Below are positions 26,438 to 41,976 of a stretch of DNA of 48,720 bases, one piece after another. Location: assembly GCF_002802985.1 (NCBI RefSeq), contig NZ_NVPT01000016.1:1-48720 (forward strand), given 5' to 3'. How positions within the stretch are numbered: position 1 is the stretch's first letter; every line of letters starts with the position of its first letter. The position numbers were made by a program, and so were the translations under genes. The notes beneath the pieces are model-generated. The model saw only the letters and a list, made by a program, of their open reading frames with translations. It had not been told where the DNA came from and searched no databases. This DNA comes from Geodermatophilus chilensis (lineage in GTDB: Bacteria > Actinomycetota > Actinomycetes > Mycobacteriales > Geodermatophilaceae).

Positions 26438-26754
26438 GACCGGCTCGCCTGCGCTCCCGCCCGGTCGACGTCGAGCCCCTCGACGCGTGCCGAGTAGTCC
26501 GACAGCTCCTGCTCGTACATGTCACCGAGCCGCTTGAGGGCGTCGAGGGTCTCGCGTGCCTCGTCCTCGTCGATGCGCGCCATGGCGAAGCCGACGTGCA
26601 CGAGCACCCAGTCGCCGACCCGGGCGCCGTCCGGACCGTCGAGGCCGATCAGGGCCACCGAGACCTCCCGGCGGACACCGTCGACGTCCACCTTCGCCCG
26701 CAGCGCGGCGGGATCGCTGATCGCCACGATCTGGCCGGGAATGCCAAGGCACAT
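26434..26754 (-). CDS. hypC: HypC-family hydrogenase chaperone
   Basis: A 106-aa HypC starting MCLGIPGQIVAI, with the essential Cys2 that becomes the N-terminus after Met removal and binds the iron group and the large subunit. The OB-fold continues with AKVDVDGVRREVSVALI and VGDWVLVHVGFAMARIDEDEA. The C-terminal ~35 residues form a longer helical tail than the usual ~80-aa HypC. It is the first gene of the minus-strand hyp operon. The divergent promoter region to 26860 is only 105 bp long. Confidence 0.95.
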   Translation of the reverse strand: MCLGIPGQIVAISDPAALRAKVDVDGVRREVSVALIGLDGPDGARVGDWVLVHVGFAMARIDEDEARETLDALKRLGDMYEQELSDYSARVEGLDVDRAGAQASRS

Positions 26755-26859: not shown

Positions 26860-27618
26860 ATGCGGGTGGCCTTCGTGGGCAAGGGCGGAGCCGGCAAGTC
26901 GTCGCTGGCCGGGACGTTCGCGCGCGTGCTCGCCGCCGCCGGCGAGCAGGTGCTGGTCCTGGACTCCGACCCCATGCCCGGCCTGGCGCTGTCCCTCGGT
27001 GTCCCCTCGGTCGACACCGGGCTGCCCGACGACGCGGTCGAGGAGTACCAGGAGGGCGGCCGCCGCCGGTACCGCCTGCGCTCCGGGCTGACCGGGCAGG
27101 GGGCCGTCGAGCAGTACGCCGTCGCAGGGCCGGACGGAGTGCGCTTCCTGCAGCTAGGCAAGGCGCGCGGCCCCCGGTGGGACAACAGCCGCCCGCACTG
27201 GGCCTTCCAGCGCGTGCTGGACGACCTGCCCGGGGACGACTGGAGCATCGTCGGCGACCTGCCCGGGGGCACCCGCCAGCCGTTCATGACCTGGGGGCGT
27301 TACGCACGGACGTACCTGGTGGTCGTCGAACCCACCCCGGCGTCCCTGCTCTCCGGGCGGCGCCTGGCCCGACTGGCCGCGAGCCGCGGCACACCGCAGG
27401 TCCTGGCGGTCGCCAACAAGATGCGGCAGCCCGACGATCCGGACCGGGTGGCGGCCGGGACCGGACTGGACGTCCTGGGCGCCGTTCCGTTCGACCCCGC
27501 CGTGGCCGAGGCCGACCGGCAGGGCCGGGCGCTCCTGGACGCCGAGCCCGCCGCGCCGGCCGTCGCCGCAGTACGGTCCCTCGTGGAGGCCCTGCGCAGC
27601 CGGGAGGCACCGTCGTGA
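26860..27618 (+). CDS. CooC/MinD-like ATPase without CxC motif (paralogue 1)
   Basis: A 252-aa deviant-Walker-A ATPase of the SIMIBI class. The P-loop is GKGGAGKSS (residues 7-15) with the signature lysine, followed by VLDSDPMPGLALSLG (switch-like) and LVVVEPTPASLLSGRRLARL. The family includes CooC, which loads nickel into CO dehydrogenase through a CxC motif. Here that motif is missing; the segment reads LGKARGPRWDNSRPHW. The start is an ATG following a TACAGT that could serve as a -10 box. It is coupled by 4 bases to paralogue 2. It may act as a non-metal partner in a heteromer, which is inference. Confidence 0.8.
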   Translation: MRVAFVGKGGAGKSSLAGTFARVLAAAGEQVLVLDSDPMPGLALSLGVPSVDTGLPDDAVEEYQEGGRRRYRLRSGLTGQGAVEQYAVAGPDGVRFLQLGKARGPRWDNSRPHWAFQRVLDDLPGDDWSIVGDLPGGTRQPFMTWGRYARTYLVVVEPTPASLLSGRRLARLAASRGTPQVLAVANKMRQPDDPDRVAAGTGLDVLGAVPFDPAVAEADRQGRALLDAEPAAPAVAAVRSLVEALRSREAPS

Positions 27619-28352
27619 AGATCGCTGTGGTCGGCAAGGGCGGGTCCGGGAAGACCACCACGGCGGCGGTCCTCGCCCGCACCTACGCCCGACGGGGGCA
27701 CGAGACCCTCGCTCTGGACTGCGACACCAACCCCAACCTCGGCATCTCGCTGGGCCTCGGCGAGGACGCGACCGAAGCCCTGGTCACCGTCCGCGACGCC
27801 CTCGACGCGGGTGAGGAGGAGCACGCGTCGAGCGCGGACGACCTGGTCGAGCGCTTCGGTGCGACCGCTCCCGACGGCGTCCGCCTCGCGGTCGTCTCGG
27901 CGATCCAGAACCCCGAACCGGGCTGCCCGTAGTGCGGCATCTCACCTGAGCAGTTGCTCGGGCAGCTGGAACGTCCCGGTCGCGCCGTCATCGCCGACTT
28001 CGAGGCCGGCCTCGGCACGGTGCTGCGGATGGACGGCCGGCCGGTCGACGTGGTCGTCGTGGTCGTCGAGCCCACGGCCAAGTCGCTGGAGGTCGGCCGC
28101 CGTGCGGCCGACGCCGTCCGCGAGGGCGGCCTGGGCCGCGTCGTGGTCACGGCCAACCGGGTCCGCGACGACGACGACGTCGCCCGGGTCCGCGCGGCCT
28201 TCCCAGGGCTCGACCCGGTCCTGGTGCCGGACGAGCCGGCGATCGTGGCCGCGGAACGGCGCGGCGAGGCGCCGCTGGACGCGGCTGCCGACTCCCCCGG
28301 GGTGCGGGCCCTGGTGCAGCTGGCCGAGAGCCTGCTCCCCGGCCGCGGCTGA
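27615..28352 (+). CDS. CooC-like ATPase interrupted by in-frame TAG at its Cys motif (paralogue 2)
   Basis: Reading starts at a GTG (VKIAVVGKGGSGKTTTAAVLA) with an intact deviant Walker A and LDCDTNPNLGISLGL. At 27930-27932 an amber codon falls between C104-P105 and the next Cys (EPGCP-stop-CGISPEQLLGQL). The same frame then continues through DFEAGLGTVLRM and VVVVVEPTAKSLEVGRRAADAV to a normal end at 28352. Without read-through the product is 105 aa, lacking half the fold. If the TAG codon were absent, the motif would be CPC, matching the CxC of paralogues 3 and 4. A nonsense mutation, a sequence error, or recoding are the options; the rest of the frame shows no decay. Confidence 0.7.
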
Positions 28353-28359
28353 GGTACAG

Positions 28360-29148
28360 CTAGCCGAGCCCGGCGGGGTCGGCGGCGTCGACGGCGTCGA
28401 GCACGTCGTCGAGCGCGGTTCGGACCGCCGGAGAGGGCGTCAGGGCGCCGGTCGTGCCGGCGCGGTCGGCCTGGGCGACCTGCTCCTCGTAGGGGAGGAC
28501 ACCGGCGACCGCCAGCCCCTCCTCCGCCAGCGCACCCCGGAGGTACTCCTCGTCCTCCGGGGTGCGCGCCTTGTTGCCCACGGCCAGCACCTGCGGGATC
28601 CCGAGCTCGGCCGCCAGTGCCGCCGTCCGCGCCGCCGTGAGCACGGACTTGCGAGTGGGTTCACAGACCACGAGCAGGAGGTCGGCGTGCGCCAGCGTCC
28701 CGCCGGACCGGCTCAGGTGCTCCAGCCCCGCCTCCATGTCCACCAGCGTCAGGTCGACGTCGGCGAGGGCGTCGGCGAGCAGGCTGCGAACCGTGGCGTG
28801 CCCACCACAGGTGCACCCGGCGCCCGCTTCGGCGACCCTGATCGCCGAGATCAACGTGGGCCCGGCCGGTGTCGGCCGTCCGTACTGCTCGACCAGGTCC
28901 GCCGCCGCGAGGCCTCCTCCTCTGCCGACCACGACGCTGCGCGGCAGGACCGGAACGGCCTCGGTCTCGGCCAGCGACAGTCCGAGGGACAGTCCCAGGT
29001 TGGGGTTGGAGTCGGTGTCGACGGCCACGACCGTGCGGCCACGTTCGGACCAGGCCCGGGCCAGCAGGCCGGCGATGGTCGTCTTGCCGACTCCGCCCTT
29101 CCCCACCACGCCGACCTTGAGGGCGGTCGGACGTGCCACGGTCCTCAT
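28360..29148 (-). CDS. CooC-like ATPase with CxC motif (paralogue 3)
   Basis: A 262-aa ATPase. The deviant Walker A is GKGGVGKTT (from residue 16), and VDTDSNPNLGLSLGL follows. The metal-type motif C112-T-C114 is in AGAGCTCGGHATVRSLL. Walker-B-like LTLVDMEAGLEHLSR and LVVCEPTRKSVLTA are also present. Position and spacing match CooC, in which a dimer binds one Ni(II) through two CxC motifs and inserts it on ATP hydrolysis. The gene faces paralogue 2, with 7 bases between their stops. Its promoter lies in the region shared with the NfuA-like gene, where a candidate operator palindrome occurs. Confidence 0.88.
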   Translation of the reverse strand: MRTVARPTALKVGVVGKGGVGKTTIAGLLARAWSERGRTVVAVDTDSNPNLGLSLGLSLAETEAVPVLPRSVVVGRGGGLAAADLVEQYGRPTPAGPTLISAIRVAEAGAGCTCGGHATVRSLLADALADVDLTLVDMEAGLEHLSRSGGTLAHADLLLVVCEPTRKSVLTAARTAALAAELGIPQVLAVGNKARTPEDEEYLRGALAEEGLAVAGVLPYEEQVAQADRAGTTGALTPSPAVRTALDDVLDAVDAADPAGLG

Positions 29149-29173
29149 CGCGTCCTCCTCGCGGCATGCAGTC

Positions 29174-29196
29174 GGTAGTGGTGCAGGTCACCTACC
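29174..29196. promoter_or_regulatory. Candidate island operator, copy A
   Basis: A 23-bp imperfect palindrome with outer arms GGTAG/CTACC and a 13-bp centre. Its minus strand begins GGTAGGTG. The same layout recurs at 39142-39164 and, more weakly, at 32323-32345. It sits between paralogue 3 (start 29148) and the NfuA-like gene (start 29273). Confidence 0.5.
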
Positions 29197-29272
29197 AGGG
29201 GCAGACTGCCACCACGCTGCCGAACCGTCGACAGGCAGGAGGGCTGCACGGTGACCAGGGTGCGGACCGCTC

Positions 29273-29821
29273 GTGGCTGAGGAGACCCCGACGGACCGGA
29301 CGCTGGCCGAACTCGGGCCGCTGCTCGACCGGCTCGAGGACTTGCTGTGCGAGGTGGACGAGTTCGACGACGCGGCACGGAGCCGGGTGTTCGAGCTGCT
29401 CGACGGCGTCGATGCGCTCCACCGGCTGGCGGTGACCCGGCTGGCCGATGCGCTCGGCGCGGACACCGACAGGCTGCGGTCGAGCGATCCAGCGGTCGCC
29501 TGGCTGTTCGAGGCCTACGGCGTGGGTGTCGACGACGTCGCGGCCGCCTCGGCGGCGCTCGACCCGGTCCGCCCGTACATCACCGAGCACGGCGGGGACG
29601 TCGAGGTGCTCGCCGTTCAGCGCGGGGTGGTCCGCGTGCGGCTGAGCGGCACCTGCTCGGGCTGCACCTCGGCCGCCCAGACCCTCCGGTACGGGGTGGA
29701 GGACGCCCTGCGGGAGAACCTGCCCGGCTTCGTCGCGATGGAGGTCGCACCCGACAGCGGCGCCGCCCCCCACCCGCCGCCCGGCCCGGTGCTGCTGCAG
29801 ATCCAGCCGCGACCGGCGTGA
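29273..29821 (+). CDS. NifU/NfuA-like Fe-S scaffold protein
   Basis: A 182-aa protein. Residues 1-95 are acidic and helical, unlike other NfuA N-domains, with LGPLLDRLEDLLCEVDEFD. Residues ~98-160 form the NifU C-terminal domain: VRPYITEHGGDVEVLAVQRGVVRVRLSGTCSGCTSAAQTLRYGVEDALRE, with cluster ligands C128 and C131. Such proteins carry and deliver [4Fe-4S] clusters. Beside a hydrogenase small subunit needing three clusters, a delivery role is reasonable. The GTG at 29273 is the start. NifU-like genes are known neighbours of actinobacterial uptake hydrogenases. Confidence 0.88.
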   Translation: MAEETPTDRTLAELGPLLDRLEDLLCEVDEFDDAARSRVFELLDGVDALHRLAVTRLADALGADTDRLRSSDPAVAWLFEAYGVGVDDVAAASAALDPVRPYITEHGGDVEVLAVQRGVVRVRLSGTCSGCTSAAQTLRYGVEDALRENLPGFVAMEVAPDSGAAPHPPPGPVLLQIQPRPA

Positions 29822-29831
29822 CCGTGGCTCG

Positions 29832-30326
29832 TCAGCCTCCGCTCACGACGTGCTCCGCCAGCAGCCGGCCGACCTCCGCAACGGCCACGTCCACGGCTCG
29901 CGCGGTGGCCGCGGACAGCCCCTGCCCGACCCGGTCGGTGTCGGTTGTCTGCACGCCCACCACGAGCGTGGTCTCCGGCAGCACGCCGAGGGCCCGCGCC
30001 ACCATCAGCGCTTTCTCCGGGGTCGCCAGGTGCATGTCCGCCAGTTCGTCGCGCCGCCGGTCGGGCGACAGGGCCGCGACGTCTAGCACGTCCGGGCGCT
30101 GGACCACCACCGTGCCAGCCGGCCGGCCGAGGTCGACGGCATCGACCACGATCAGCACCTCGGCCCCCGGCATCAGCTCCTGCACCAGGTGGATGCCCCC
30201 GATGCCGACCTCGAGCACGCTGACCCCGGCGGGCAGGCCCACCGCCAGGAGGCGTTCGGCCACCGCACTGCCGAACCCGTCGTCCCCCCGCAGCACGTTG
30301 CCGAAGCAGGCGACGATCGCGGCCAC
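29832..30326 (-). CDS. Hydrogenase maturation protease (HyaD/HybD/HoxM family)
   Basis: A 164-aa nickel-dependent endopeptidase that removes the C-terminal tail of the large subunit after nickel insertion. From the GTG at 30326 it reads VAAIVACFGNVLRGDDGFGSAVAERLL. The metal-ligand positions of HybD (Glu16, Asp62, His93) correspond to D16 in GDDGFG, D62 in VVDAVD and H99 in ADMHLATPEKAL. An upstream ATG at 30347 exists, but its codon would overlap the divergent TPR start by two bases. This is the catalytically complete protease of the island. Confidence 0.9.
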   Translation of the reverse strand: MAAIVACFGNVLRGDDGFGSAVAERLLAVGLPAGVSVLEVGIGGIHLVQELMPGAEVLIVVDAVDLGRPAGTVVVQRPDVLDVAALSPDRRRDELADMHLATPEKALMVARALGVLPETTLVVGVQTTDTDRVGQGLSAATARAVDVAVAEVGRLLAEHVVSGG

Positions 30327-30345
30327 GGCAGCAGGGTAGGCGGCC

Positions 30346-31584
30346 ATGACGGCAGCCCAGCCGGATCCGCTCGCCGCACGGCTCGACCGCTATCCGGTCA
30401 CCCGGTATCCGGTACAGCACGCCACGACGCAGTTCCACCTCGGTGCCTCGCGGCTGGCGGCCGGGGACCCGACCGCCGCCCTCGATGCGCTGACCGTGGC
30501 CCGGCGCGTCTTCGGCGAGGCGAGCCTGCGCCTGGAGGAGGCCAAGGCCACCACCATGCTCGGCATCGCGCTGCGGGAGTCCGGCCGGCCGGCGGAGGCC
30601 GCGACGGCGTTCCGCGCGGCGGCGGAGTCGTTCGCGGAGCTGGGCCAGCCGGTCGAGCAGGCCGCAGCCTCCTACAATCTGGGGCTGGTCCTGCGCGACG
30701 GTGGGGACGTCGCCGCAGCCCAGGCCGCCTGGTCGACCGCGCGGGAGGCCTTCCGCGCCAGCGGGCAGCCGGCCCAGGCGGCGGCCTGCGCCCGCGAGCA
30801 CGGCGCGTGTCTGCTCACGGCCGGCGACCCCGAGGCCGCGCAACCGCTGCTCGAGGAGGCGGCCGTCCTCGCCGAGCGGGCGGGCGACCTGCCTGGGCTC
30901 GGAGCCGCTCTCAACGCGCTGGGGCTGGCGTTGCTGGCGACTGACCGGCCCGCCGAGGCCGCGGAGACGTTCCGCCGGGCGCTCGGCGCCTCCCCCCGCA
31001 CGGTCCGCCCGGCCGAGTACGCCATGGCCAAGGCCAACCTGGCGCTGGCCGCTGCTCGCGCCGGGCAGGACGCGCGTGCCCGGCTCGCCGCCCGGCAGTC
31101 GCTGGCCGTGCCCGCGGCCGCCGCACCCGTCCGGGCCCAGGCCCGCCAGGTGCTGGCCCAGCTGCCGCCCCCACCGGGGAACGACCTGCTGGACGTGCTC
31201 GACGAGGAGCCGCCCGACCGGTGGACCGCCACGGTCCGCGAGGAGGTGCTGCGACTGGTCGAGGCACCGGCTCCCGAGCGTCGAGCCGCCGTGGCCGGCT
31301 TCCTCGAGGGTGCGCTCGCCCGTCCGGGGACGGCTCACGCGCTGGTCCAGAGCTTCCTGCACGTGCTCCTCGAGCTCCCGCCGTCGGGGTACGACCCGAT
31401 GGTGCAGGCCGTGGTCGGAGCCGCGGTCGCCGGTGGGCCCGAGGCCTCGCCGCGGAACCGCGACGCGCTGCGCCGGGTGATGCGCTCGGCCATGGCCAGG
31501 TTCCCCGTCCCGCAGTGGGACCGGCTCGCCGCGAGCTTCGACGCGGTGGCGGCCGAGAGCGGTGCGCCGCTCGGTTGGCGATGA
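30346..31584 (+). CDS. TPR-repeat protein of the hydrogenase island
   Basis: A 412-aa soluble protein. Residues ~25-265 hold about six tetratricopeptide repeats (for example QFHLGASRLAAGDPTAALDALTVARRVF, TMLGIALRESGRPAEAATAFRAAAESF, AALNALGLALLATDRPAEAAETFRRAL), forming a superhelix for protein binding. Residues ~285-412 are a separate helical domain (RWTATVREEVLRLVEAPAPERRAAVAGFLEG, DALRRVMRSAMARFPVPQWDRL). No signal peptide. Its stop overlaps the next start (ATGA), so it is coupled to the biotin-ligase-like gene. An assembly-scaffold role is inferred from fold and position. Confidence 0.8.
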   Translation: MTAAQPDPLAARLDRYPVTRYPVQHATTQFHLGASRLAAGDPTAALDALTVARRVFGEASLRLEEAKATTMLGIALRESGRPAEAATAFRAAAESFAELGQPVEQAAASYNLGLVLRDGGDVAAAQAAWSTAREAFRASGQPAQAAACAREHGACLLTAGDPEAAQPLLEEAAVLAERAGDLPGLGAALNALGLALLATDRPAEAAETFRRALGASPRTVRPAEYAMAKANLALAAARAGQDARARLAARQSLAVPAAAAPVRAQARQVLAQLPPPPGNDLLDVLDEEPPDRWTATVREEVLRLVEAPAPERRAAVAGFLEGALARPGTAHALVQSFLHVLLELPPSGYDPMVQAVVGAAVAGGPEASPRNRDALRRVMRSAMARFPVPQWDRLAASFDAVAAESGAPLGWR

Positions 31585-32327
31585 GCGCAGACCTGGCCGC
31601 CGAGGAACTGACGCGCCTGCTCGGCACGCGCCCGTTCCGCTCCTACCCGGCGCTGCTGTTCACCGAGCCGGCGGCGATGGCCTGGGCCCGAACCGGAGCA
31701 CCGGCCGGTGCGGTGGTCGTCGCCGACTACCAGGCCTCGCCGCGGGGCCGTGGCGGCTGGCCGTGGCAGGTGCGTCCCGGGCACGGACTCGGTTTCTCCC
31801 TGGTCCTGCGCCCGGACCTGCCGCCGGAACGGGAGGGCTGGCTCTACGTCGTCGCCTCCGTCGCACTGGCCGACGAACTGGGCGACGTCCGGTTCGCGTG
31901 GCCGGACACCGTCACAGCTCCGGACGGCGGCACCGTTCTCGTTCGGCTCGGCGCCTTCGTGCAACTGGGGCCGCAGCGCACCGAGTGGGCGGTGGCCACG
32001 GTGCTCGTCGAGGACGCCGCCCCACCGCGAGGCCGGCTGCTCGCCCGGCTCGCCGCGGCCGTCGAGCAACGACTGACCCAACCGCCCGCCGCGGTGCTCG
32101 AGGCCTACGCGCCGCGGTGCCTGACCCTCGGCCGGTTCGTCCGGGCGCGCATGATCCCGCTGGGACCGGGCGGACCCGCGGTCGTCGGTGAGGCGGTCGA
32201 CGTCCTTGCCGACGGTGCCCTGGTCCTGCGCACGGCCCGGGGCAACCGCGTCGCCGTCCGCCCACCCAACCTCGGCCTGCTCGAACCGGCCGAACCGCCC
32301 GACGAGGGGAAGCAGGAGGGCATGTAG
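31581..32327 (+). CDS. Biotin-protein-ligase-fold protein lacking the usual active-site lysine
   Basis: A 248-aa protein resembling the catalytic and C-terminal domains of biotin protein ligases. The biotin-loop counterpart is ASPRGRGGWPWQVRPGHGLGFSLVLRP (residues 52-78; ligases have GRGRxGRxW...GxGLYxS). The second landmark, KWPND in ligases, reads FAWPDT (105-110), with Ala for the lysine and Asp for Asn. A small C-terminal SH3-like domain follows (VVGEAVDVLADGALVLRTARGN). It has no DNA-binding domain and no biotin acceptor nearby. It is coupled to the TPR gene. It may bind a ligand or modify a partner differently; the family call is by motif pattern only. Confidence 0.65.
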   Translation: MSADLAAEELTRLLGTRPFRSYPALLFTEPAAMAWARTGAPAGAVVVADYQASPRGRGGWPWQVRPGHGLGFSLVLRPDLPPEREGWLYVVASVALADELGDVRFAWPDTVTAPDGGTVLVRLGAFVQLGPQRTEWAVATVLVEDAAPPRGRLLARLAAAVEQRLTQPPAAVLEAYAPRCLTLGRFVRARMIPLGPGGPAVVGEAVDVLADGALVLRTARGNRVAVRPPNLGLLEPAEPPDEGKQEGM

Positions 32328-32345
32328 GTGTTCCTGACATGTAGT
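32323..32345. promoter_or_regulatory. Candidate island operator, copy C (weaker)
   Basis: Begins TGTAGGTG and matches copies A and B at GTAGGTG-N2-C-N3-AC-N3-TA, but its second arm is degenerate. It overlaps the stop codon of the biotin-ligase-like gene and precedes the first small membrane protein by about 14 bases, so it could be an internal control point or chance. Confidence 0.3.
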
Positions 32346-32358
32346 AGCGTCCGGCCGC

Positions 32359-32643
32359 GTGATGCTGGTCACACCAGGCGCCTCGGCACCGTCGGTCCGG
32401 TCCGCGCTCAGCAGCGCCTCCGTGCGATGGAAGGTCGGCTGGTGCGTGGGCGGAGCGGTCGTGGTCGTCAGCGCCGGGCTGCTGCTGACGATCATCGGGT
32501 ACGCCCGGCGCATCGCGCGGCAGGCCGACGAGATCACCGCAGCGCTCGAAGCGGCCCGCGCCAACACCGCCCCCCTGTTCGACCTCGTGCGCACCAACGG
32601 TCACCTCGATCGCATCGCCGCGCCGTCGCAGGAGCGTCGGTGA
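32359..32643 (+). CDS. Mini membrane-anchored coiled-coil protein 1 of 4
   Basis: A 94-aa protein. After ~26 polar residues comes one membrane helix (VGWCVGGAVVVVSAGLLLTIIGYA), then a charged amphipathic helix RRIARQADEITAALEAARANTAPLFDLV. The block with NT followed by hydrophobics recurs in the next three proteins. GTG 32359 or ATG 32362 are both possible starts. Its stop overlaps the next start by four bases. The fold predicts a membrane-tethered bundle in the cytoplasm. No known family recognised. Confidence 0.75.
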   Translation: MMLVTPGASAPSVRSALSSASVRWKVGWCVGGAVVVVSAGLLLTIIGYARRIARQADEITAALEAARANTAPLFDLVRTNGHLDRIAAPSQERR

Positions 32644-32897
32644 GGCGCGCCGAGCGCCTGGCCGCCGTCGTCGGGCTGGGTGCGGGGGCCGCGGTCGTGG
32701 GCGTGGCCGGTCTGCTGTTGCACCGCACGCTGGCCGTGGCCCAGGAGATCGGGCGGTACGCCGGGGACATCGCGACGGCGGCCTCGGCGCTGCGCGACAA
32801 CACCGACCTGGCGGGGCACCTGACGACCCTGGGGGCGGGGGCGGCCCGTCTCCGTGCTGCCGCGGACGGTTCACCGGCGGAGGGGGCGGTTCGATGA
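32640..32897 (+). CDS. Mini membrane-anchored coiled-coil protein 2 of 4
   Basis: An 85-aa protein starting at a GTG (VRRAERLAAVVGLG). The membrane helix is at residues ~7-27, then TLAVAQEIGRYAGDIATAASALRDNTDLAGHL, a helix with heptad-like hydrophobics and the shared NT motif. The C-terminus is short and polar. The basic start places the N-terminus inside, so the orientation of the helix after the membrane needs testing. Both ends overlap neighbours by four bases. Confidence 0.75.
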   Translation: MRRAERLAAVVGLGAGAAVVGVAGLLLHRTLAVAQEIGRYAGDIATAASALRDNTDLAGHLTTLGAGAARLRAAADGSPAEGAVR

Positions 32898-33160
32898 CAC
32901 ACGCAGACCCCAACCAGGTGCGGTGGCTGGTCACGCTGGCAGGCGGAGGGGTCGCCGTCCTCGCCGTCGCCGGCCTGCTCGAGACACTGCGTCGGAGCGT
33001 CGCCGACGTCGACGCGGCGGTCGACCGGGTCTGGACGGCGGGGAAGCTGGTAGCGCAGAACACCCAGGCGGGGCACCTGCTCCGGGAGACGACGGCGCGG
33101 ACCGCGGCACTACATGGGGCGCTCGGCGCACCCGACGGGTCGAAGGAGCGTGCTCGGTGA
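32894..33160 (+). CDS. Mini membrane-anchored coiled-coil protein 3 of 4
   Basis: An 88-aa protein starting MTHADPNQVRW. One membrane helix (residues ~10-29, LVTLAGGGVAVLAVAGLLETL) is followed by RRSVADVDAAVDRVWTAGKLVAQNTQAGHLLRET. This is the same layout as proteins 1 and 2, with an NT-x5-L motif at the same distance from the membrane. It ends in a basic tail. Coupled by ATGA and GTGA overlaps to its neighbours. Confidence 0.75.
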   Translation: MTHADPNQVRWLVTLAGGGVAVLAVAGLLETLRRSVADVDAAVDRVWTAGKLVAQNTQAGHLLRETTARTAALHGALGAPDGSKERAR

Positions 33161-33387
33161 GAAGAGGCCTGATCGCACTCACCCTCGGCGAGGTCGCCGT
33201 CCTGGTCGGCGCGCTGGCCGGCTACCTCGTCGCCATCACACGGACACTGCGCCAGGTCTCGCAGACGCTGGCCCGGATCACGATGGGGGTACGCGCCATC
33301 GAACGCCAGACAGAACCGATCGGACCCGCGCTCCAGGCGGTCAACGCCGACCTCGACGCGGTGGCCTCTGCGCTCGAGCGCGGCTGA
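33157..33387 (+). CDS. Mini membrane-anchored coiled-coil protein 4 of 4
   Basis: A 76-aa protein starting at a GTG (VRRGLIALTLGEVAVLVGALAGYLVAI). The membrane helix is followed by TRTLRQVSQTLARITMGVRAIERQTEPIGPALQAVNADLDAVASAL. It is the most diverged of the four (QT instead of NT) and has the longest helix after the membrane. It is the last gene of the coupled series that starts with the TPR gene. Confidence 0.75.
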   Translation: MRRGLIALTLGEVAVLVGALAGYLVAITRTLRQVSQTLARITMGVRAIERQTEPIGPALQAVNADLDAVASALERG

Positions 33388-33444
33388 TTCGCCGGCGCCG
33401 AGGTCCGGTTCCGGAGCTGTGCGGAAGACAGCCCGCCCGGAGGG

Positions 33445-34239: not shown

Positions 34240-34381
34240 GCTTCCCCTCCCGGGAAACGGCGGGCTCCACCCTGGCCGGAGTCAACCAGCGCGGAGCGAT
34301 CGGCGCATCTCCCGACGACGGTTGACGGCACCCCGCGGCGGTGACACCGTCAGCCGGGACACCGGCGTCGGTGGAGGTGCG

Positions 34382-35011
34382 ATGGTGCGCGGCATCGTGA
34401 TCGGGCTCTGTAGCACGCTGTTCCTGGTCGTCACCGCGACGGGCGCACTCGCCTGCGACACCAGCTCCTGGCTCCAGGTGCGCGGCACGGCCGCCCCGGG
34501 CGCCGCCGTGACGGTCTACGGGGGCGGTCTCGAACCGGGCCCGATGACGCTGGTCTGGGACCGTTCCGGTGGCGAGGTCGTCGGTGCTGCCTCCGTCTCG
34601 CCGGACGGCCGCGTGGAGGCCGACGTCGAGATCCCCGCCACCGCCGCCGGACGGCACACGATCATCGCGGTGCCCGCCGCTGCGGCCGAGTCGCCGGTCG
34701 ACCTGCACGCCTGGACCGACGTGATCGTCCCCGGGGGCGCCGTCGAGCCACAGCCGGTACCGGTGCCGGTGCCGGCGGGCCGGGCCACCGCGGAGTCCTC
34801 GCTGGCGGGCCAGGTCGGGCTCGGGCTCGCCGCCCTCACGATCGCCGTTCTGGTCCTGGCTGTCCGGCGCCGGCGCGCCGCCGGTCGCGCTGCGGCGGCA
34901 GGCATCGGCGGAGTCGATGCCCTCGACGCCGAGCTGCGCGGCCTGCTCGACGAACAGCAGCGCGACCCCTCCTCCGCCACCGGCACACCCGGCTCGCCGG
35001 TCAGCCGCTGA
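34382..35011 (+). CDS. Exported single-pass membrane protein, Ig-like extracytoplasmic domain
   Basis: A 209-aa protein. The N-terminal signal is VRGIVIGLCSTLFLVVTATGALAC. A beta-sandwich-like domain follows (RGTAAPGAAVTVYGGGLEPGPMTLVWDRSGG...GRVEADVEIPATAAGRHTIIAV), then a Pro/Val linker (EPQPVPVPVPAG), a membrane helix at ~145-163 and a basic cytoplasmic tail with an acidic helix (ALDAELRGLLDEQQRD). No sorting motif such as LPxTG. Divergent from the lipoprotein at 34239. A surface or envelope role is inferred only from topology. Confidence 0.75.
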   Translation: MVRGIVIGLCSTLFLVVTATGALACDTSSWLQVRGTAAPGAAVTVYGGGLEPGPMTLVWDRSGGEVVGAASVSPDGRVEADVEIPATAAGRHTIIAVPAAAAESPVDLHAWTDVIVPGGAVEPQPVPVPVPAGRATAESSLAGQVGLGLAALTIAVLVLAVRRRRAAGRAAAAGIGGVDALDAELRGLLDEQQRDPSSATGTPGSPVSR

Positions 35012-35044
35012 TCGCCACGGGCCGACGGATCGAGCGCCCCCCGA

Positions 35045-35800
35045 TCAGGGCACGGGACGAGCCTCCAACGCCTCCAGGCGGTCGAGTTCCTCGATGAGTG
35101 CCCACCACAGGCCCCAGTCGCGGTGGTCCATGCCCTCGCTGCTCGCCCCGGCCGCGATCCCGAGCCTCAGCCGGTCGCGCAGCCGGAAGGTCGCCCCCCA
35201 GCGGCCGTCCCGGTCCAGGCGGACGAGTTCGTCGAGCAGTGCGTGCAGCGCACGGAGGGACGCCGAGTCCCCCAGCCGGTAGCCCTCCAGCAGTGTCCGC
35301 AGCTCGTCGGCGAGCCGGAGCAGGGGAGCCCGCCGCACCTCGTCCCGCACGATCGCGAGGGCCGCGCCGAGACCGGCGGCGGCCGACGGGCTCAGCCCCT
35401 CCCCCGGATCGACCTCCTCCGGCTCCACCTCCACCGTCACCGTCCGGCCCGGGAGCACCCGCAAGCCGGCGGCCACGTCGACGACGAGGTCGACGTGCAC
35501 GTAGCCCACGACGGCGTTCCCGACCGCCGCCTGCAGGTCGTCCGGTGCCAGCTGTGGCGGGTCGATGCGCCGACGCTCGACCGTTCCGGGCGCCCGTCCG
35601 CGTCGCACAGCGGCCACGAGCACGAGCGAGTCGGGCCGCAGGTCCTCCAGCCGCTGCGCGACGGCCACCGCGCCGTAGTGCAGGTCCTCGACGAGGACGT
35701 CCGGGCCCAGGCCCTCGGCGGCGAGCCGCTCCGCGGCGAGCCGGCCGAGGTCGAGATCGCCCTGGAACAGCTCGCTCACCCCGCCGACGAGGACGGTCAT
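35045..35800 (-). CDS. Hydrogenase-protease-like protein lacking metal ligands
   Basis: A 251-aa protein whose first ~150 residues follow the HybD/HycI pattern but have lost its active site. The opening is VLVGGVSELFQGDLDLGRLAAERL; the Glu16 position is Leu. The block matching HybD LIIADAI...APGT reads LVLVAAVRRGRAPGT, so the Asp62 position is Ala. No His matches His93. The C-terminal ~95 residues (LADELRTLLEGYRLGDSASLRALHALLDELVRLD) are an added helical domain. It is the third gene of the structural operon, 16 bases after the large-subunit gene. A chaperone or gatekeeper for the large-subunit tail is inferred. Confidence 0.75.
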   Translation of the reverse strand: MTVLVGGVSELFQGDLDLGRLAAERLAAEGLGPDVLVEDLHYGAVAVAQRLEDLRPDSLVLVAAVRRGRAPGTVERRRIDPPQLAPDDLQAAVGNAVVGYVHVDLVVDVAAGLRVLPGRTVTVEVEPEEVDPGEGLSPSAAAGLGAALAIVRDEVRRAPLLRLADELRTLLEGYRLGDSASLRALHALLDELVRLDRDGRWGATFRLRDRLRLGIAAGASSEGMDHRDWGLWWALIEELDRLEALEARPVP

Positions 35801-35816
35801 CGGTGCCGAGCGGTCC

Positions 35817-37718
35817 TCAGTCGCCGCCGCAGGAGCAGGTGTTGACCTCGCGGACCACCTCGCCGGCACCGGTGTGCACGTGCGTGGTGCACGGCATGCA
35901 CGGATCGAAGCTGCGGATGGCCCGGAGCATGTCGATGCTGGTGAAGGACGACGGGTCGGACATCTCCTCGATGATGGGGGTGTTCATCACCGCCTCCTCG
36001 TACGGGCCGGGCTGACCCCAGGGGTCGCGCGGTGACGCGTTGATCGTCGACGGGGTGCAGATCTGGTAGTTGGTGATCTTGCCCTTGTCCATGACGAGGT
36101 GGTGGGTGAGCCAGCCCCGGCCGGCCCCCCACCACCCGACACTCACCCGTTCGTCGTCCGGGATGGCGTTCTCCAGCTCCTCGGGTGTCATGGCGGCGAC
36201 CCGGCGTTCGCCCTGCTTGTGCATGTCGTAGGCCTGCAGCAGGCTCTCCAGCGCCACGAGCTGGCTGAACAGGTAGTGGTAGGCGCGGCCGCGGTTGCGC
36301 TCGAAGGCGTTCCACTTCTCGGGTACGCGCCACTCCACCTCGCGCTCGCCGGTCTCCCCCTTCGGCACCAGGAAACGCATGCCGGAGCCGGTGGCGGTCA
36401 TGAACTCGCTCTCGGGCATCTTCTGCGCCTTGGCGGTCATGAGCAGGCGGGAGTAGCAGCCGGCCTCCACGACCTGGCGGTCCCAGCGCGGGGTGCACGC
36501 CCAGGTGTACTTGTCCTTCCAGTTCTTGGCGCCGGGCTTGGGCAGCGTCCGCTTGTTCCAGGGGTGGTAGGGCGACAGCGGGTTGCCGAGCGAGTCGGTG
36601 GCGAAGCGGGTGGTCGAGGACTCCTCGTAGTAGGAGTGCTCGACGAACTCCTCCCACCCGATGTTGATGTCGGTGAGCCGGGTGGTCAGCAGCTCGCCAC
36701 CGATCACGACGCCGGGCGTCGACCAGCGCTTCTCCCCCCAGGAGTTGCAATTCTCGTAGGTCGCGTCGTAGGCGTGGGGGTCGTCCCAGTAGCCCGGGTC
36801 GATGTGGTTGGTCGGGCGGTAGCCGGTCAGCTGGAAACGGTCGTCGGCCTCGTAGAAGAAGGCGGGGATGTCGTCCCAGACCGCCATCATCCGCTGCGCG
36901 TAGTCGAAGATCTTGCCGAGTCTCGAGTGGTACTCGTTCAGCGTCTGCAAGGTCAGCGTGGTCGACACGCCCCCGGGCACGACGTTCTCCGGATGCGGGT
37001 ACTTGCCGGTGAGCAGGACGACCATCTCCCGCGAGAGCCGGGTGAACTCCAGGCCCTCGCGGTACAGCTTGCCGGTCAGCGGGTTGAGCGCCGTCATGAG
37101 GTCGGCCATGGTGGCGAATCCGTGGATGTGCACGTTCGGGCACTTCCACGCCTCGGCCTTCGGCCACAGCTCGGGATTGGTGGTCCTGACCACCGACTCG
37201 GAGTAGTCGGGACCGGCGAGCAGGTAGAGGTGCAGCGGGTTGTCGTACCCCATCTCCGCGGCCTCGGTCATGTTGCGGACGACGGTGCCGAGGGGCGGCG
37301 GCTTGATGCCCATCGCGGACTCGATGGCGTAGGCCGCCGCGTGCGCGTGCACGCCGCCGCAGACGCCGCAGGCACGCGACGCCACGAAGATCGCGTCCCG
37401 CGGGTCCCGGCCCATGAGGATCACCTCGTAGCCGCGGAACAGGGTCGCCACGGCGTGCGAGTCCAGGTACGCACGGTTCTCCAGGTCGGCCGTCACGTGC
37501 ACGGCCATGGCCCCGGCGATGCGGGTGACCGGGTCCATGTTGAGGTCCTTGACGTGCCCGTTGCGGGCCACCAGACGCGCGATCCGCGCGGTGCGCTCCT
37601 CCTCGGTCATCCCGACGTCCGGCTTGGTCAGGGTGACGTCGTAGGGGTTGGGGATCCCGCCGCGCAGGGTGGCCCGCCCGCGCTCGTCGAACTCGACGGG
37701 CAGCGTCTTGAAGCACAT
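35817..37718 (-). CDS. [NiFe]-hydrogenase large subunit
   Basis: A 633-aa catalytic subunit holding the NiFe(CN)2CO centre, which splits H2. Nickel ligands are C117 and C120 (ASRACGVCGGVHAH) and C607 and C610 (SFDPCMPCTTH). MDPVTRIAGAMAVHV is the RxxG-type motif near the N-terminus. The late block AGRGWLTHHLVMDKGKITNYQICTPSTINASPRD is typical of group 1 enzymes. Maturation should cut after H613, removing a 20-residue tail ending in CSCGGD. Group 1h (Hhy/Hof type) or a relative is my best placement; the subgroup needs a tree. It starts 32 bases after the small-subunit stop. Confidence 0.95.
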   Translation of the reverse strand: MCFKTLPVEFDERGRATLRGGIPNPYDVTLTKPDVGMTEEERTARIARLVARNGHVKDLNMDPVTRIAGAMAVHVTADLENRAYLDSHAVATLFRGYEVILMGRDPRDAIFVASRACGVCGGVHAHAAAYAIESAMGIKPPPLGTVVRNMTEAAEMGYDNPLHLYLLAGPDYSESVVRTTNPELWPKAEAWKCPNVHIHGFATMADLMTALNPLTGKLYREGLEFTRLSREMVVLLTGKYPHPENVVPGGVSTTLTLQTLNEYHSRLGKIFDYAQRMMAVWDDIPAFFYEADDRFQLTGYRPTNHIDPGYWDDPHAYDATYENCNSWGEKRWSTPGVVIGGELLTTRLTDINIGWEEFVEHSYYEESSTTRFATDSLGNPLSPYHPWNKRTLPKPGAKNWKDKYTWACTPRWDRQVVEAGCYSRLLMTAKAQKMPESEFMTATGSGMRFLVPKGETGEREVEWRVPEKWNAFERNRGRAYHYLFSQLVALESLLQAYDMHKQGERRVAAMTPEELENAIPDDERVSVGWWGAGRGWLTHHLVMDKGKITNYQICTPSTINASPRDPWGQPGPYEEAVMNTPIIEEMSDPSSFTSIDMLRAIRSFDPCMPCTTHVHTGAGEVVREVNTCSCGGD

Positions 37719-37750
37719 GGGGACTCCTCGATCGGTCGCGACGGAGTTGG

Positions 37751-39112
37751 TCAGACGCGGGGCTCGGGGCTGCCGCCGCTGGGGGCCTCCTCGCGCTTGC
37801 CCCACACGTCGGCCTTGGCCTTCCCACGGTCACCGGAGCGGCGGAGCGCGTCGTAGAACCTGTGGTTCACCTGGGCGATGGCCGACGGTTCGGGCATCTC
37901 GCGCCCGAAGCCGCTGGGCGTGGCGCCCTGCCGGTCCCAGCGCACCTCACGGTTGAGGTTGTTGTTGCTGAACCTGCGCAGCGGCCGGATGACGCTGCCC
38001 ACCATGCGCGAGACCGTGGTCGAGGCGAACGAACCCGGCGGCCGCTTGTAGAACGGGGTGAACTTGTCGGGGAAGCCGGGCATGGTGCAGCCGATGCACG
38101 GCCCGCCGGCGTTCATGCAGCCCCCGACGTGGTTGATCATGCCGCGGGAGGTGATGTTGCAGTTGACGACCGGCCCCCAGCAGCCCACCTCGACCAGGCA
38201 CTCGGGGTCGCCGAACTCCTGCGCGAACGTGCCCTCCTCGTAGTAGGCGCCGCGCACGCAGTTGCGGTGCACCGTCTCGCCGAACAGCCAGGCCGGCCGG
38301 CCCAGCTCGTCGAACTCCGGCAGGGGGCCGAAGCCCTGCAGGAAGTAGAGGATGGCCGCCACGGTCTCGGTGAAGTTGTCGCCGATCGGCGGGCAGCCGG
38401 GGACGTTGACCACCGGGACGCCGAAGGTCGAGCGGTAGTCCTTGCCGAGCCAGTCCATCAGGCTCATCGCCCCGGTCGGGTTCCCCTCGGCCGAGGGGAT
38501 CCCGCCCCAGGTCGCGCAGGTGCCGATGGCGATCATCGCGGCCGCGTTGGGGGCCAGCCGTGCCACCCACTCCGAGGCGGTCACCGTGCGCATCTCGCCG
38601 TCCGGACCCCACGGCTCCTCGCCCTGACCGGACCAGTAACCGCCGGAGGCGGCGGCGGCCAGCTCGTCGGAGATGGAGCCCTCGAGGACGACAGCGTAGG
38701 GGGCGTTGAGCGTGCCGGCGATGGCTTCCTCCGCCGCCCGCGTGTAGTGCGGCCCCGACTCCATGTTGAGCACCGGGTGGTGCAGCACGACGCGGGGCAG
38801 GCCCGGGTGAGCGCCCAGCAGCAGGCTCTCCACCGACGGGGTCGTCGCCCCGGTGGTGGCCACGCTGCAGCCGTCGCAGCTCATCCCGGCGAACCAGAAG
38901 ACGTGCAGCTTCTCCAGTGGGCCGAACCGCGCCGGGTTGGAGCCCTGGGCGTCAGCCGGGAGCATGTCCTCGGTCACCTGCCCGGAGGGCAGGCCGAAGG
39001 CGCCGAACTCCTCGATGTCGTGGAAGCGCTCCACGGGGCCCAGCTCGTCGAGCAGCTCCTGCGCTGGTGTGCGCGGCTGCAGCCGGGGTGAGCGGGTCTG
39101 TCGGTCCGCCAT
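37751..39112 (-). CDS. [NiFe]-hydrogenase small subunit (three Fe-S clusters)
   Basis: A 453-aa electron-transfer subunit. Proximal-cluster ligands are C79 and C82 (GMSCDGCSVATTGATTPS) with GTCATWGG and VPGCPPIGDN. Medial and distal ligands are in GETVHRNCVRG, DPECLVEVGCWGPVVNC and CMNAGGPCIGCTMPGFPD. There is no twin-Arg signal and no C-terminal membrane helix, so the enzyme should be cytoplasmic-facing. It has an N-terminal extension of ~65 residues and a ~100-residue tail after the last cluster motif. In group 1h enzymes I recall Asp at the second position of the first pair (CDGD); here it is Cys. First gene of the structural operon. Confidence 0.95.
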   Translation of the reverse strand: MADRQTRSPRLQPRTPAQELLDELGPVERFHDIEEFGAFGLPSGQVTEDMLPADAQGSNPARFGPLEKLHVFWFAGMSCDGCSVATTGATTPSVESLLLGAHPGLPRVVLHHPVLNMESGPHYTRAAEEAIAGTLNAPYAVVLEGSISDELAAAASGGYWSGQGEEPWGPDGEMRTVTASEWVARLAPNAAAMIAIGTCATWGGIPSAEGNPTGAMSLMDWLGKDYRSTFGVPVVNVPGCPPIGDNFTETVAAILYFLQGFGPLPEFDELGRPAWLFGETVHRNCVRGAYYEEGTFAQEFGDPECLVEVGCWGPVVNCNITSRGMINHVGGCMNAGGPCIGCTMPGFPDKFTPFYKRPPGSFASTTVSRMVGSVIRPLRRFSNNNLNREVRWDRQGATPSGFGREMPEPSAIAQVNHRFYDALRRSGDRGKAKADVWGKREEAPSGGSPEPRV

Positions 39113-39141
39113 TCGACGCTCCGGTGGCGAGGAGGGACGCC

Positions 39142-39164
39142 GGTAGGTGCACCGTACAGCTACC
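39142..39164. promoter_or_regulatory. Candidate island operator, copy B
   Basis: A 23-bp imperfect palindrome with outer arms GGTAG/CTACC and a 13-bp centre, the same design as copy A at 29174. It lies 30 bases before the small-subunit start and 52 bases before the divergent winged-helix gene, in their shared promoter region. Confidence 0.55.
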
Positions 39165-39176
39165 AGGCCGATCCGG

Positions 39177-39192
39177 TGTAGCGTGCGTCACA
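39177..39192. promoter_or_regulatory. Half-conserved CRP/FNR-like site
   Basis: TGTAGCGTGCGTCACA keeps the right half TCACA and the 6-bp spacing of the CRP consensus, while the left half is TGTAG. It also sits in a GGTGT/ACACC inverted repeat (39175-39194). It is in the structural-operon divergent promoter. Weak by itself, but comparable with the site at 26777. Confidence 0.35.
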
Positions 39193-39216
39193 CCTGGTCA
39201 GTGTGGAGGAGCGGAC

Positions 39217-39603
39217 GTGGACGACCTGCACCCGCCCAAGTCCGAGGCCCTACGCGCCCTCTACTGGCGCAGCGAGATCCTCCAGGTGATGTTCTGGCTC
39301 CGGGGCGAGGGCCTCGGTGACGTCGTCGATGCCGCGCTGCTCGAGCGCTTCCTGGGCGTCGACGCCGCGGTCGGGGTCGGCTACCTGGACCGGCTGGTGG
39401 CCGGCGGCTACCTCGACCGCACGCCGGGCGGCTACGTGCTGTCCGAGAGCGGCCTGGCCGAAGGCCGGACCGAGTTCGCCCTGGGCTTCTCCGACCTCAC
39501 CCGACCGGCGCACGGCGAGTGCAGCGCCGACTGCTGGTGTCACAACTCGGTGGAGGAGGCGCTCGCCTGCGCCGCAGAGCGCGCGACAGGCACGGACGCA
39601 TGA
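39217..39603 (+). CDS. Winged-helix protein with C-terminal His/Cys cluster
   Basis: A 128-aa protein starting at a GTG. Residues ~1-85 look like a winged helix: KSEALRALYWRSEILQVMFWLRGEG, then VGYLDRLVAGGYLDRTPGGYVLSESGLAEGR. The tail HGECSADCWCHNSVEEAL has H99, C102, C106, C108 and H109, a likely metal or Fe-S site. It is divergent from the structural operon and followed by a PadR gene with a 4-bp overlap. It could be a redox- or metal-sensing regulator of the island, or a maturation factor that keeps the winged-helix fold. It has no identified family name. Confidence 0.75.
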   Translation: MDDLHPPKSEALRALYWRSEILQVMFWLRGEGLGDVVDAALLERFLGVDAAVGVGYLDRLVAGGYLDRTPGGYVLSESGLAEGRTEFALGFSDLTRPAHGECSADCWCHNSVEEALACAAERATGTDA

Positions 39604-39974
39604 GCGGCGCACCCCGGGAGGAGGTCCCCGTCGGGCTGCCGCGCAACTACCTGCGGCCGTGCCTGCTCCTGCTCCTCGCCGAGGGAACCTCCCACGGGTA
39701 CGAGCTGCTGGAGCAGGTGTCCGCCCTCGGCCTGGACCGGGTGGACCCGGGCGGCCTCTACCGAAGCCTGCGGGCCATGGACGAGGAGGGGCTGGTCCGC
39801 TCCAGCTGGCAACCCTCGGCGAGCGGACCGGCGCGCCGCACCTACCAGCTGACCGACGAGGGGCGGGAGTGGCTGCACGCCGTCGCCGGTTCGCTGGCCG
39901 AGATCTCCCGCAGCCTGGAGGCCTACCGCGCCCGCTACCAGGCCGTCCTGGAGCAGAGCAGGCCTGCGCGGTGA
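39600..39974 (+). CDS. PadR-family transcription regulator
   Basis: A 124-aa PadR protein. The N-terminal winged helix is LPRNYLRPCLLLLLAEGTSHGYELLEQVSALGL, then DPGGLYRSLRAMDEEGLVRSSWQPS and ARRTYQLTDEGREWLHA. A C-terminal dimerisation helix follows (LAEISRSLEAYRARYQAVLEQ). PadR proteins are usually repressors released by a small ligand. It is sandwiched by 4-bp overlaps between the Cys-rich winged-helix gene and the fourth CooC-like ATPase. Control of the hydrogenase operons through the shared palindrome is a reasonable inference. Confidence 0.88.
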   Translation: MSGAPREEVPVGLPRNYLRPCLLLLLAEGTSHGYELLEQVSALGLDRVDPGGLYRSLRAMDEEGLVRSSWQPSASGPARRTYQLTDEGREWLHAVAGSLAEISRSLEAYRARYQAVLEQSRPAR

Positions 39975-40741
39975 GACTGGCCGTCGCCGGCAAGGGCGGC
40001 GCCGGGAAGACGACACTGTCCGCCACGCTGGCCCTCCTGGCCGCCCGGAGCGGCCGGCCGGTCGTCGCCGTCGACGCCGACGCCAACCCCAATCTGGCCA
40101 CCGCCCTCGGCGTGCCGCCGCACGCCGCTTCCCTCCGCCCGGTTCCACCGTCCCTCGTCTCCCGTCGCCGGGGTGGCGCCGGGCTGCTCGAGCCGATCGA
40201 CGAGGTGCTGGACCGGTACTCGGCGTCCGGACCGGACGGCATCCGCCTGCTCGGCATGGGGGGTCCGGCGCACGCCGACGAGGGGTGCCTCTGCGCCGCG
40301 CACGCGGTGGTCTCCGCGGTGCTCGAGGACCTGGGCGGCCCGGAGCGGCTCGTCCTCGTCGACATGGAGGCCTCGCCGGAGCACCTGAGCCGGGGCACCG
40401 TCCGGCACGTCGACGCGGTCCTCCTGGTCGCCGAGCCCTACTACCGGTCCCTCGAGACGGTGCGGCGGATGAGTGCCCTCGTCGCCGAGCTGCCGGTGCC
40501 CTCGACGTCGGTCGTCGCCAACAAGGTGCGCTCGCCGGCGGACCGCGACGCGGTCGAGGAGTACTGCGGACGACACGGTCTCGCCTTCGCCGGGGCGGTC
40601 CCGTGGAGCGACGCCGTGGGGCTCGCCGACCGGGCCCGGGTGCCGGTCGCGGACGGGCCGGGCACGGGTGACGTGGTCGCGGCCGTGCACGACCTCGCCG
40701 GCACCCTCGGCCGCCTCACGGGCCATCGGCTGCTGGGCTGA
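39971..40741 (+). CDS. CooC-like ATPase with CxC motif (paralogue 4)
   Basis: A 256-aa ATPase. The deviant Walker A is GKGGAGKTT (residues 7-15), followed by VDADANPNLATALGV. The metal-type motif C106-L-C108 is in HADEGCLCAAHAVVSAVLEDL. VLVDMEASPEHLSRGT and LLVAEPYYRSLETVRRM follow. The GTG overlaps the PadR stop by four bases, so regulator and ATPase are made together. Like paralogue 3 it keeps everything needed for CooC-type nickel binding. Its 3' end overlaps a truncated ABC gene by 26 bases. Confidence 0.88.
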   Translation: MRLAVAGKGGAGKTTLSATLALLAARSGRPVVAVDADANPNLATALGVPPHAASLRPVPPSLVSRRRGGAGLLEPIDEVLDRYSASGPDGIRLLGMGGPAHADEGCLCAAHAVVSAVLEDLGGPERLVLVDMEASPEHLSRGTVRHVDAVLLVAEPYYRSLETVRRMSALVAELPVPSTSVVANKVRSPADRDAVEEYCGRHGLAFAGAVPWSDAVGLADRARVPVADGPGTGDVVAAVHDLAGTLGRLTGHRLLG

Positions 40742-41912: not shown

Positions 41913-41976
41913 GGCCCACGTCGGTCCCGACCGGCGTCCCAGCGAGTCGCGTGCCCGGTCGGTGGAGCGCCGCTCC

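Follow-up and report, generated by a model that had tools for sequence, protein, structure and literature searches.

Four CooC/MinD-type ATPases in a [NiFe]-hydrogenase island

The DNA analysed here, referred to as the window, is a stretch of 48,720 nucleotides (nt) from Geodermatophilus chilensis (NZ_NVPT01000016.1, positions 1 to 48,720), corresponding to contig C68 of a source genome of 5.51 Mb that is distributed over 374 contigs and is 99.98% complete. Between hypF and the last of four ATPase genes (ATP1 to ATP4, paralogues 1 to 4), at 20.5-40.7 kb, it carries an island that comprises hyp genes, the four ATPases, accessory genes and both subunits of a [NiFe]-hydrogenase (Table 1). Taken jointly, the two propositions developed below, that ATP2 is a selenoprotein and that these ATPases replace HypA and HypB (HypAB), appear probable from comparative sequence analysis.

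A first-pass annotation had described four ATPases with the deviant Walker A motif KGGxGK[TS], two of them (paralogues 3 and 4) with a CxC motif. The Walker A motif was recovered in paralogues 1, 3 and 4 and the CxC in both paralogues named, but paralogue 2 is interrupted by a TAG at codon 106 that had gone unreported, and the paralogues with a CxC-type motif number three, the stop occupying the position of the second Cys in paralogue 2. In searches of PDB sequences CooC was the top match of ATP2, ATP3 and ATP4, with the next family 7-17 orders of magnitude behind (ATP3 and ATP4 match CooC 3kje with E values of 6.7e-25 and 1.5e-22, respectively, both with the CxC aligned). The CxU of ATP2 and the CxC of ATP3 and ATP4 are in register with the CxC of CooC, which we take to be its metal-binding site. 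CooC1 binds nickel at the CxC of a nucleotide-gated dimer interface. The best PDB match of ATP1 is MinD 1hyq (1e-9), with CooC slightly behind (1.7e-8), and the combination of CooC-type family and deviant Walker A is found in ATP2-4 and weakly in ATP1. An AlphaFold model of ATP2 has the MinD/CooC fold with a mean predicted local distance difference test score of 86.7, falling to near 60 in the motif stretch; fold comparison was rejected as a discriminator for CooC, given that MinD, FleN and NifH score alike.

Among relatives, full-length orthologues are about 61-90% identical (45% for the copy on L073) versus 32-44% between paralogues. The CxC site is Cys-free in every aligned ATP1 relative, all ATP3 relatives of at least 66% identity have CTC (two rows near 44% being paralogue 4), and ATP4 relatives have CLC in 12 of 13 rows, the remaining one (L073) having a stop at the first Cys. 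Relatives comprised 14 loci from a scan of genome contigs; of 112 genomes of the family, 8 contained ATP2, the window's included, and a plasmid collection searched with ATP2 gave no match. Besides the window, stretches of eight other species carry the complete quartet (L061, L064, L065, L066, L067, L069, L070 and L120); L072 shows three ATPases and the start of a fourth, L063 three up to the end of the stretch, and the other stretches stop short. G459 and G462 have the gene order ATP3-ATP1-ATP2, and on L073 one ATP4-like ATPase is all that is seen. For comparisons between genomes we used a panel of 19, of which 16 have a window-type large subunit and three (G459, G462 and G464) were chosen by ATP2 only; G504, G507 and G509, whose contig numbers and coordinates coincide with those of G419, G401 and G496, were treated as duplicates of these, and each was counted once.

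The hyp set had been given as HypC, a SIS-HypC fusion, a SIS protein, HypD, HypE and HypF, and was found so. The closest solved structure to the large subunit is HofG (5AA5), and a genome-wide search identified it as the only [NiFe] large subunit of the source genome. It is approximately 40% identical to enzymes called '1h-type' here, a working label that derives from this level of identity to the window enzyme and is unchecked against a reference set. Judged by gene content, the window hydrogenase fits group 1m, which was described in PMC9561532 from cold-desert metagenome-assembled genomes (MAGs) and for which atmospheric H2 uptake in desert soils was inferred as an enzyme class. The host, a soil bacterium, probably scavenges hydrogen. 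According to the same text (PMC9561532), 1m clusters include two small membrane proteins of 82-92 amino acids (aa) and 'typically' a DUF1059 protein; no DUF1059 protein was found among the Pfam-scanned proteins of the window cluster, a scan outside which some of the small open reading frames (ORFs) and the PadR gene fall. Group 1l was dropped as a candidate class, since it has HylTM genes between the subunits (PMC9561532) and the window cluster fits 1m.

Table 1. Coordinates of the genes and the predicted RNA element of the island
Feature	Position	Strand	Remarks
HypF	20478..22808	-	
HypE	22832..23935	-	
HypD	23932..25071	-	
SIS-domain protein, GmhA-like	25068..25724	-	
SIS-HypC fusion	25721..26437	-	HypC part PF01455; SIS part, weak GmhA-like matches
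HypC	26434..26727	-	
ATP1 (paralogue 1), MinD/CooC-type	26860..27618	+	deviant Walker A; Pfam CbiA; no Cys at CxC site
ATP2 (paralogue 2), CooC-type, predicted C-P-U-C	27615..28352	+	TAG read through; final stop TGA
Predicted bacterial SECIS hairpin	27945..27962	+	7-bp stem 27945-27951/27956-27962; loop AGUU 27952-27955
ATP3 (paralogue 3), CooC-type, motif CTC (GCTC)	28360..29148	-	deviant Walker A
NifU-domain Fe-S protein	29273..29821	+	PF01106 9.9e-21
Hydrogenase maturation protease, M52/HycI family	29832..30347	-	TIGR00072 4e-28, over cut-off
TPR protein	30346..31584	+	
BirA-like protein	31581..32327	+	TIGR00121 1.3e-10, under cut-off; no Pfam match
Small ORFs, 65 + 85 + 88 aa	32446..33160	+	ORF calling only
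Second, divergent maturation-protease-like protein	35045..35800	-	TIGR00072 2.8e-10, under cut-off
[NiFe]-hydrogenase large subunit, group 1m type (HhmL)	35817..37718	-	ligand motifs RACGVCGGVH, DPCMPC; C-terminal tail with CSC
[NiFe]-hydrogenase small subunit, group 1m type (HhmS)	37751..39112	-	
PadR-type regulator	39600..39974	+	best match under curated cut-off
ATP4 (paralogue 4), CooC-type, motif CLC (GCLC)	39971..40741	+	deviant Walker A

Just outside hypF there are broken pieces of an IS3-family transposase (17887-18803, minus strand), and a tyrosine recombinase/phage-type integrase is encoded at 5510-6712 (minus strand). Next to paralogue 4 lie apparent remnants of an Opp/Dpp/Nik-type ATP-binding cassette transporter (40716-42089, minus strand, and 44699-45835, plus strand), including an ATPase with an oligo_HPY domain and an SBP_bac_5 protein that weakly matches a nickel binder.

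The in-frame stop codon of ATP2 and its predicted decoding

When ATP2 is aligned with paralogues 3 and 4 and with CooC, the TAG that interrupts it (27930-27932, plus strand; codon 106, context ...PEPGCP*CGISPE...) falls on the second Cys of their CxC. At this codon, which could be read in 13 species, TAG was found in five (that of the window, Blastococcus mobilis, B. saxobsidens, Modestobacter sp. DSM 44400 and G416), TGA in four (G459, G462, G508 and G510) and TGC or TGT, encoding Cys, in four (G244, G506 with TGC, G512 and G514); it was unreadable in 6 of the 19 genomes (G464, G505, G511, G513, G515 and G516). A survey of 24 window genes against 15 relatives, using aligned pieces of at least 50% identity, indicates that the stop is not there by chance, because among 45,931 distinct genome-residue pairs no window residue other than 106 was aligned to an in-frame stop, and at residue 106 the stop recurs in 8 other species. 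Standard annotation would label such a gene as truncated, so that it is easily overlooked.

Decoding of TGA as selenocysteine (Sec) was rejected for the window gene, its codon being TAG, and a tRNA-Sec with anticodon CUA was therefore sought, and found. In the source genome this tRNA (anticodon CTA in the DNA) matches Rfam RF01852 with 65.1 bits, where the gathering score is 47, and adjoins selA, selB and selD, all over curated cut-offs. A search of the 19 distinct genomes at E 1e-7 detected a tRNA-Sec with anticodon CUA in 5/5 TAG species and with UCA in 3/4 TGA species, and none in 4/4 Cys species, which yielded tRNA-Ser at most; G464 and G511, both with an unreadable ATP2 codon, have the anticodon TCA. 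Recoding of UAG must be local, given that TAG also ends other gene calls (10 of 54 calls of a crude predictor, the ATP2 codon among the 10).

Within this one family, tRNA-Sec has the anticodon UCA in G462 and G464 and CUA in G000, G401, G416, G419 and G496, and the ATP2 codon matches the anticodon in the six family genomes in which both are readable. This split is a natural record of a switch between UGA and UAG. The original report of UAG-encoded Sec for the family is said to be Mukai et al. 2016. A CUA tRNA-Sec together with UAG-encoded FDH, UGSC and AhpC selenoproteins has been published for the Geodermatophilaceae (PMC5330540). ARAGORN labels the window tRNA 'Pyl', presumably from its anticodon, and a CUA tRNA could in principle read UAG as another amino acid, such as pyrrolysine or Cys; the score of the Rfam match, the selA, selB and selD genes alongside, the published use of UAG for Sec in the family (PMC5330540) and the TGA or Cys found at the codon in relatives make this very improbable.

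Downstream of the TAG a putative selenocysteine insertion sequence (SECIS) hairpin is predicted (Table 1). The bacterial SECIS (bSECIS) model, as given in PMC13188914, has a loop of 3-9 nt with a G among its first two nucleotides and a stem of 4-16 base pairs (bp), lies 16-37 nt from the codon and has a minimum free energy of at most -7.5. The ATP2 hairpin falls within all of these limits, with a loop of 4 nt, a stem of 7 bp, a G at position 2, a start 19 nt after the TAG and a minimum free energy of -11.7 kcal/mol. The 26-nt block 3' of the stop that forms the hairpin, TCTCACCTGAGCAGTTGCTCGGGCAG, shows no difference among 9/9 stop-bearing species and has diverged in species with Cys. Across the 9 stop-bearing species, 9 of the 11 invariant residues in codons +1 to +12 use a single codon, versus 12 of 120 in the rest of ATP2 (Fisher p 5.7e-7), while the same test in 3 Cys species gave 2/8 in the block versus 35/144 elsewhere; G506 was excluded from it, tblastn reading its ATP2 in two pieces. 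It is this selective conservation of the aligned block, not the stability of the hairpin, that supports a SECIS element. An Rfam scan of 20-42 kb with E up to 10 yielded nothing beyond three weak hits, which belonged to miRNA and viral families.

Because the stop interrupts the gene and a TTG at 27954 could start a second half, paralogue 2 might be regarded as a pseudogene or as two separately translated halves. The stop is placed at the same codon in 9 species and is of two types, its type fits the tRNA-Sec anticodon in the 8 species where a tRNA was found, and the post-stop block is conserved only in stop-bearing species; purifying selection also persists past the stop, where the share of third positions exceeds half of all differences in 8/8 comparisons. 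Such an origin is accordingly extremely improbable, and ATP2 is almost certainly a UAG-encoded selenoprotein with the predicted motif Cys-Pro-Sec-Cys.

Some observations weigh against a selenoprotein. The stability of the hairpin is unexceptional, as at the three lengths considered 26, 58 and 68 of 200 shuffled sequences reach the same stability. G459, which is 82% complete, has TGA at the codon, yet no tRNA-Sec was found in it, and the five genomes with the CTA anticodon belong to one family, so that their counts are not independent events. Stops also occur elsewhere: two lone ones in insertions near C-termini (in the protease at 35045-35800 in G514 and in paralogue 4 in G512), and, with the identity limit lowered to 40%, one in an insertion of a paralogue-4 piece on L063 (47% identity) and one at the first CxC Cys of the paralogue-4-like gene on L073. 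Furthermore, the ATP2 tree is mostly unresolved, with 7 of 11 inner branches open, and independent Sec/Cys or codon switches were therefore left uncounted.

The L073 gene (10849-11583, plus strand) encodes an ATP4-like ATPase in a more distant 1m-type cluster, and in it TGA takes the place of the first Cys codon of the CxC (GTG*LCS). A downstream hairpin lies within the bSECIS constraints and is no stabler than shuffles, and no tRNA-Sec was found in the corresponding MAG (G515). This TGA is possibly a second Sec site in the ATPase group.

HypA and HypB across genomes and the proposed delivery of nickel

The absence of HypA and HypB from the island, and of a carbon monoxide dehydrogenase gene, had been noted in the first-pass annotation; for HypA, HypB and a CooS-type dehydrogenase it extends to the whole source genome. 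No HypA was found genome-wide and no HypB, the sole match to TIGR00073 (HypB) reaching 46.4 bits where the cut-off is 121.2; this model is also missing from the NCBIfam tables of all four ATPases. There was no Prismane/CooS match in the genome, and hence no cooS for the ATPases to accompany, and, with a single large subunit, no hypAB pair beside another hydrogenase locus. A search for ureG, suggested at the time, did find a candidate: the two highest-scoring cobW/G3E matches appear to be a UreG-like gene, which is the sole match of the HypB model, and a COG0523-like gene, as judged by features characteristic of these families.

Across genomes, the occurrence of HypAB follows the type of hydrogenase. 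In 28 genomes with 1h-type enzymes, hand-picked from the 75 that the search found besides G000 and G244, HypA is present in 28/28 and HypB over the cut-off in 24/28. In the 19-genome panel a HypA match was found in 7 and HypB over the cut-off in 6. In the 13 genomes (the window's included) in which a single large subunit exceeds the Pfam cut-off, HypB over the cut-off is missing throughout and HypA is present in one, truncated; G508 and G513 have in addition one weak match each under the cut-off, and the large subunit of G516 is cut by the contig end. The truncated HypA (G512:C267; L136:9791-9943) begins like HypA and breaks off after approximately 50 residues, apparently a relic, in a genome without HypB. 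The four best-assembled genomes (G000, G401, G416 and G419; 99-100% complete) have neither protein. Conversely, G496, G459 and G515 have a second large subunit, of 1h type, in the same stretch as hypA and hypB (in G459 a fragment at a contig end), and G505 has such a second large subunit with hypB, its hypA being on another contig.

This pattern has its weak points as a case for the replacement of HypAB. Four of the 28 1h-type genomes also have no HypB over the cut-off, so that its absence alone is not special; G462 and G464 bear HypAB and show a single large-subunit fragment each, with no second hydrogenase assigned; and most relatives beyond the family are MAGs, which weakens the absences there. 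The UreG-like gene of the source genome could, moreover, in principle assist with nickel.

A further feature associated with the window-type enzyme is found at the C-terminus of the large subunit. The tail of the [NiFe]-hydrogenase large subunit is cleaved after nickel insertion. The tail was readable in 15 of the 19 panel genomes; after DPCMPCTTH it contains C-[SA]-C (CSC or CAC) in 15/15 of these window-type large subunits, against 0/15 of the 1h-type enzymes read. We propose that this CxC could serve as a docking, relay, hand-over or proofreading site for nickel coming from the CxC/CxU ATPases.

Together, these observations suggest a scheme in which the island dispenses with HypA and HypB for the production and maturation of a group 1m-type [NiFe]-hydrogenase. 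HypCDEF, families whose role with the Fe(CN)2CO unit is established, would build and insert this unit, and nickel would then be delivered by ATP2, ATP3 and ATP4, which may bind it at the CxC-type site of a nucleotide-gated dimer interface in the manner of CooC1; ATP1, devoid of the metal site, could regulate the others or pair with them. In ATP2, Sec would occupy the place of the second Cys, inserted at UAG by means of the CUA tRNA-Sec, SelA, SelB, SelD and the downstream SECIS hairpin. From the comparisons above we infer cellular insertion of Sec, nickel binding by these ATPases and their role in loading this hydrogenase.

It could also be that ATP2 is a selenoprotein while the ATPases serve Fe-S, Fe(CN)2CO or other assembly in the way of Mrp or NifH, nickel being inserted with the help of UreG or unaided. 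MinD and NifH match the ATP2 fold as well as CooC does (FleN scores alike, ApbC a little lower), a NifU-domain protein is encoded next door and the source genome has the UreG-like gene; these are points in its favour, but the sequence matches of ATP2-4 place CooC far ahead of any other family, with the CxC in register. Help from UreG does not look general either, because the HypB model, which detects UreG-like genes elsewhere, found nothing at E 0.001 in nine of the 13 single-hydrogenase genomes (G401, G416, G506, G508, G510, G512, G513, G514 and G516), in which no search aimed at UreG itself was made. We regard assembly work of this kind as unlikely.

The involvement of CooC-type ATPases in nickel insertion, as the first-pass annotation had proposed, is thus clearly favoured by the comparison, through both the CooC matches and the pattern of HypAB over genomes, and it is quite likely that they replace HypAB in this step. 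A CooC-type nickel-insertion ATPase has already been noted for the group 1m cluster (PMC9561532). The fullest version of the proposal, a selenium-dependent nickel insertase in which ATP2 provides a Cys/Sec site at the dimer interface, HypA and HypB have been displaced, the CxC tail acts as a relay and the codon tracks the anticodon within one bacterial family, we hold to be evenly balanced. If true, it would place such an insertase in an aerobic H2-scavenging hydrogenase. The natural Cys and Sec versions of ATP2 in related species offer a ready experiment on the benefit of selenium to a nickel chaperone.

Relation to known systems

The ATPases resemble CooC1 (3KJE/3KJG/3KJH/3KJI), the top PDB match of ATP2-4, in the deviant Walker A and the place of the CxC, and differ in that the source genome has no cooS and four paralogues lie beside a [NiFe]-hydrogenase; ATP2 differs further by a predicted Sec for the second Cys and an extra adjacent Cys (C-P-U-C). 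The ATPase-type HypB is a MinD/Mrp-type ATPase that replaces the GTPase HypB in [NiFe]-hydrogenase maturation and is partnered with HypA. Its structures from Thermococcus, which we take to be 3VX3 and 5AUN-5AUQ, are among the fold matches, but HypA is absent here and the match to 3VX3 (E 0.0015) is far weaker than that to CooC. With the classical HypA/HypB pair the ATPases would share the step performed, whereas the protein families differ and the pair is absent here.

As far as the main text of PMC9561532 goes, the island shares with group 1m the adjacent large and small subunits, a HybD-type peptidase, an Fe-S assembly protein, a CooC-type ATPase, TPR and BirA-like proteins, small proteins and the template 5AA5, and differs from it in that one CooC-type ATPase is listed there, against four in the window; 'selen' and 'hypA' do not occur in that text. 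A full-text literature search, covering titles and abstract openings with little of the subscription journals, returned no report of a CooC-type selenoprotein or of CooC in place of HypAB. Selenocysteine, the four paralogues and the loss of HypAB were likewise not found in print in the portions of the sources available.

Among selenoproteins, Table 1 of the 2026 review PMC13188914, in the part available, contains no CooC- or MinD-type protein. Its nearest entry is CobW-related: NF041053, a predicted selenoprotein that is kin to NTPase metallochaperones, is, however, a relative of the CobW/G3E GTPases with UxxC, in contrast to the MinD/CooC-type ATPase with CxU described here. The UAG-encoded FDH, UGSC and AhpC selenoproteins of the Geodermatophilaceae share with ATP2 the family of the host, the CUA tRNA-Sec and a TAG Sec site, and AhpC also a downstream bSECIS, but they belong to other protein families, with no CooC-type ATPase among them in the available part of PMC5330540. 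ATP2 would add a selenoprotein family and lengthen the short list of proteins in which UAG is known to encode selenocysteine.

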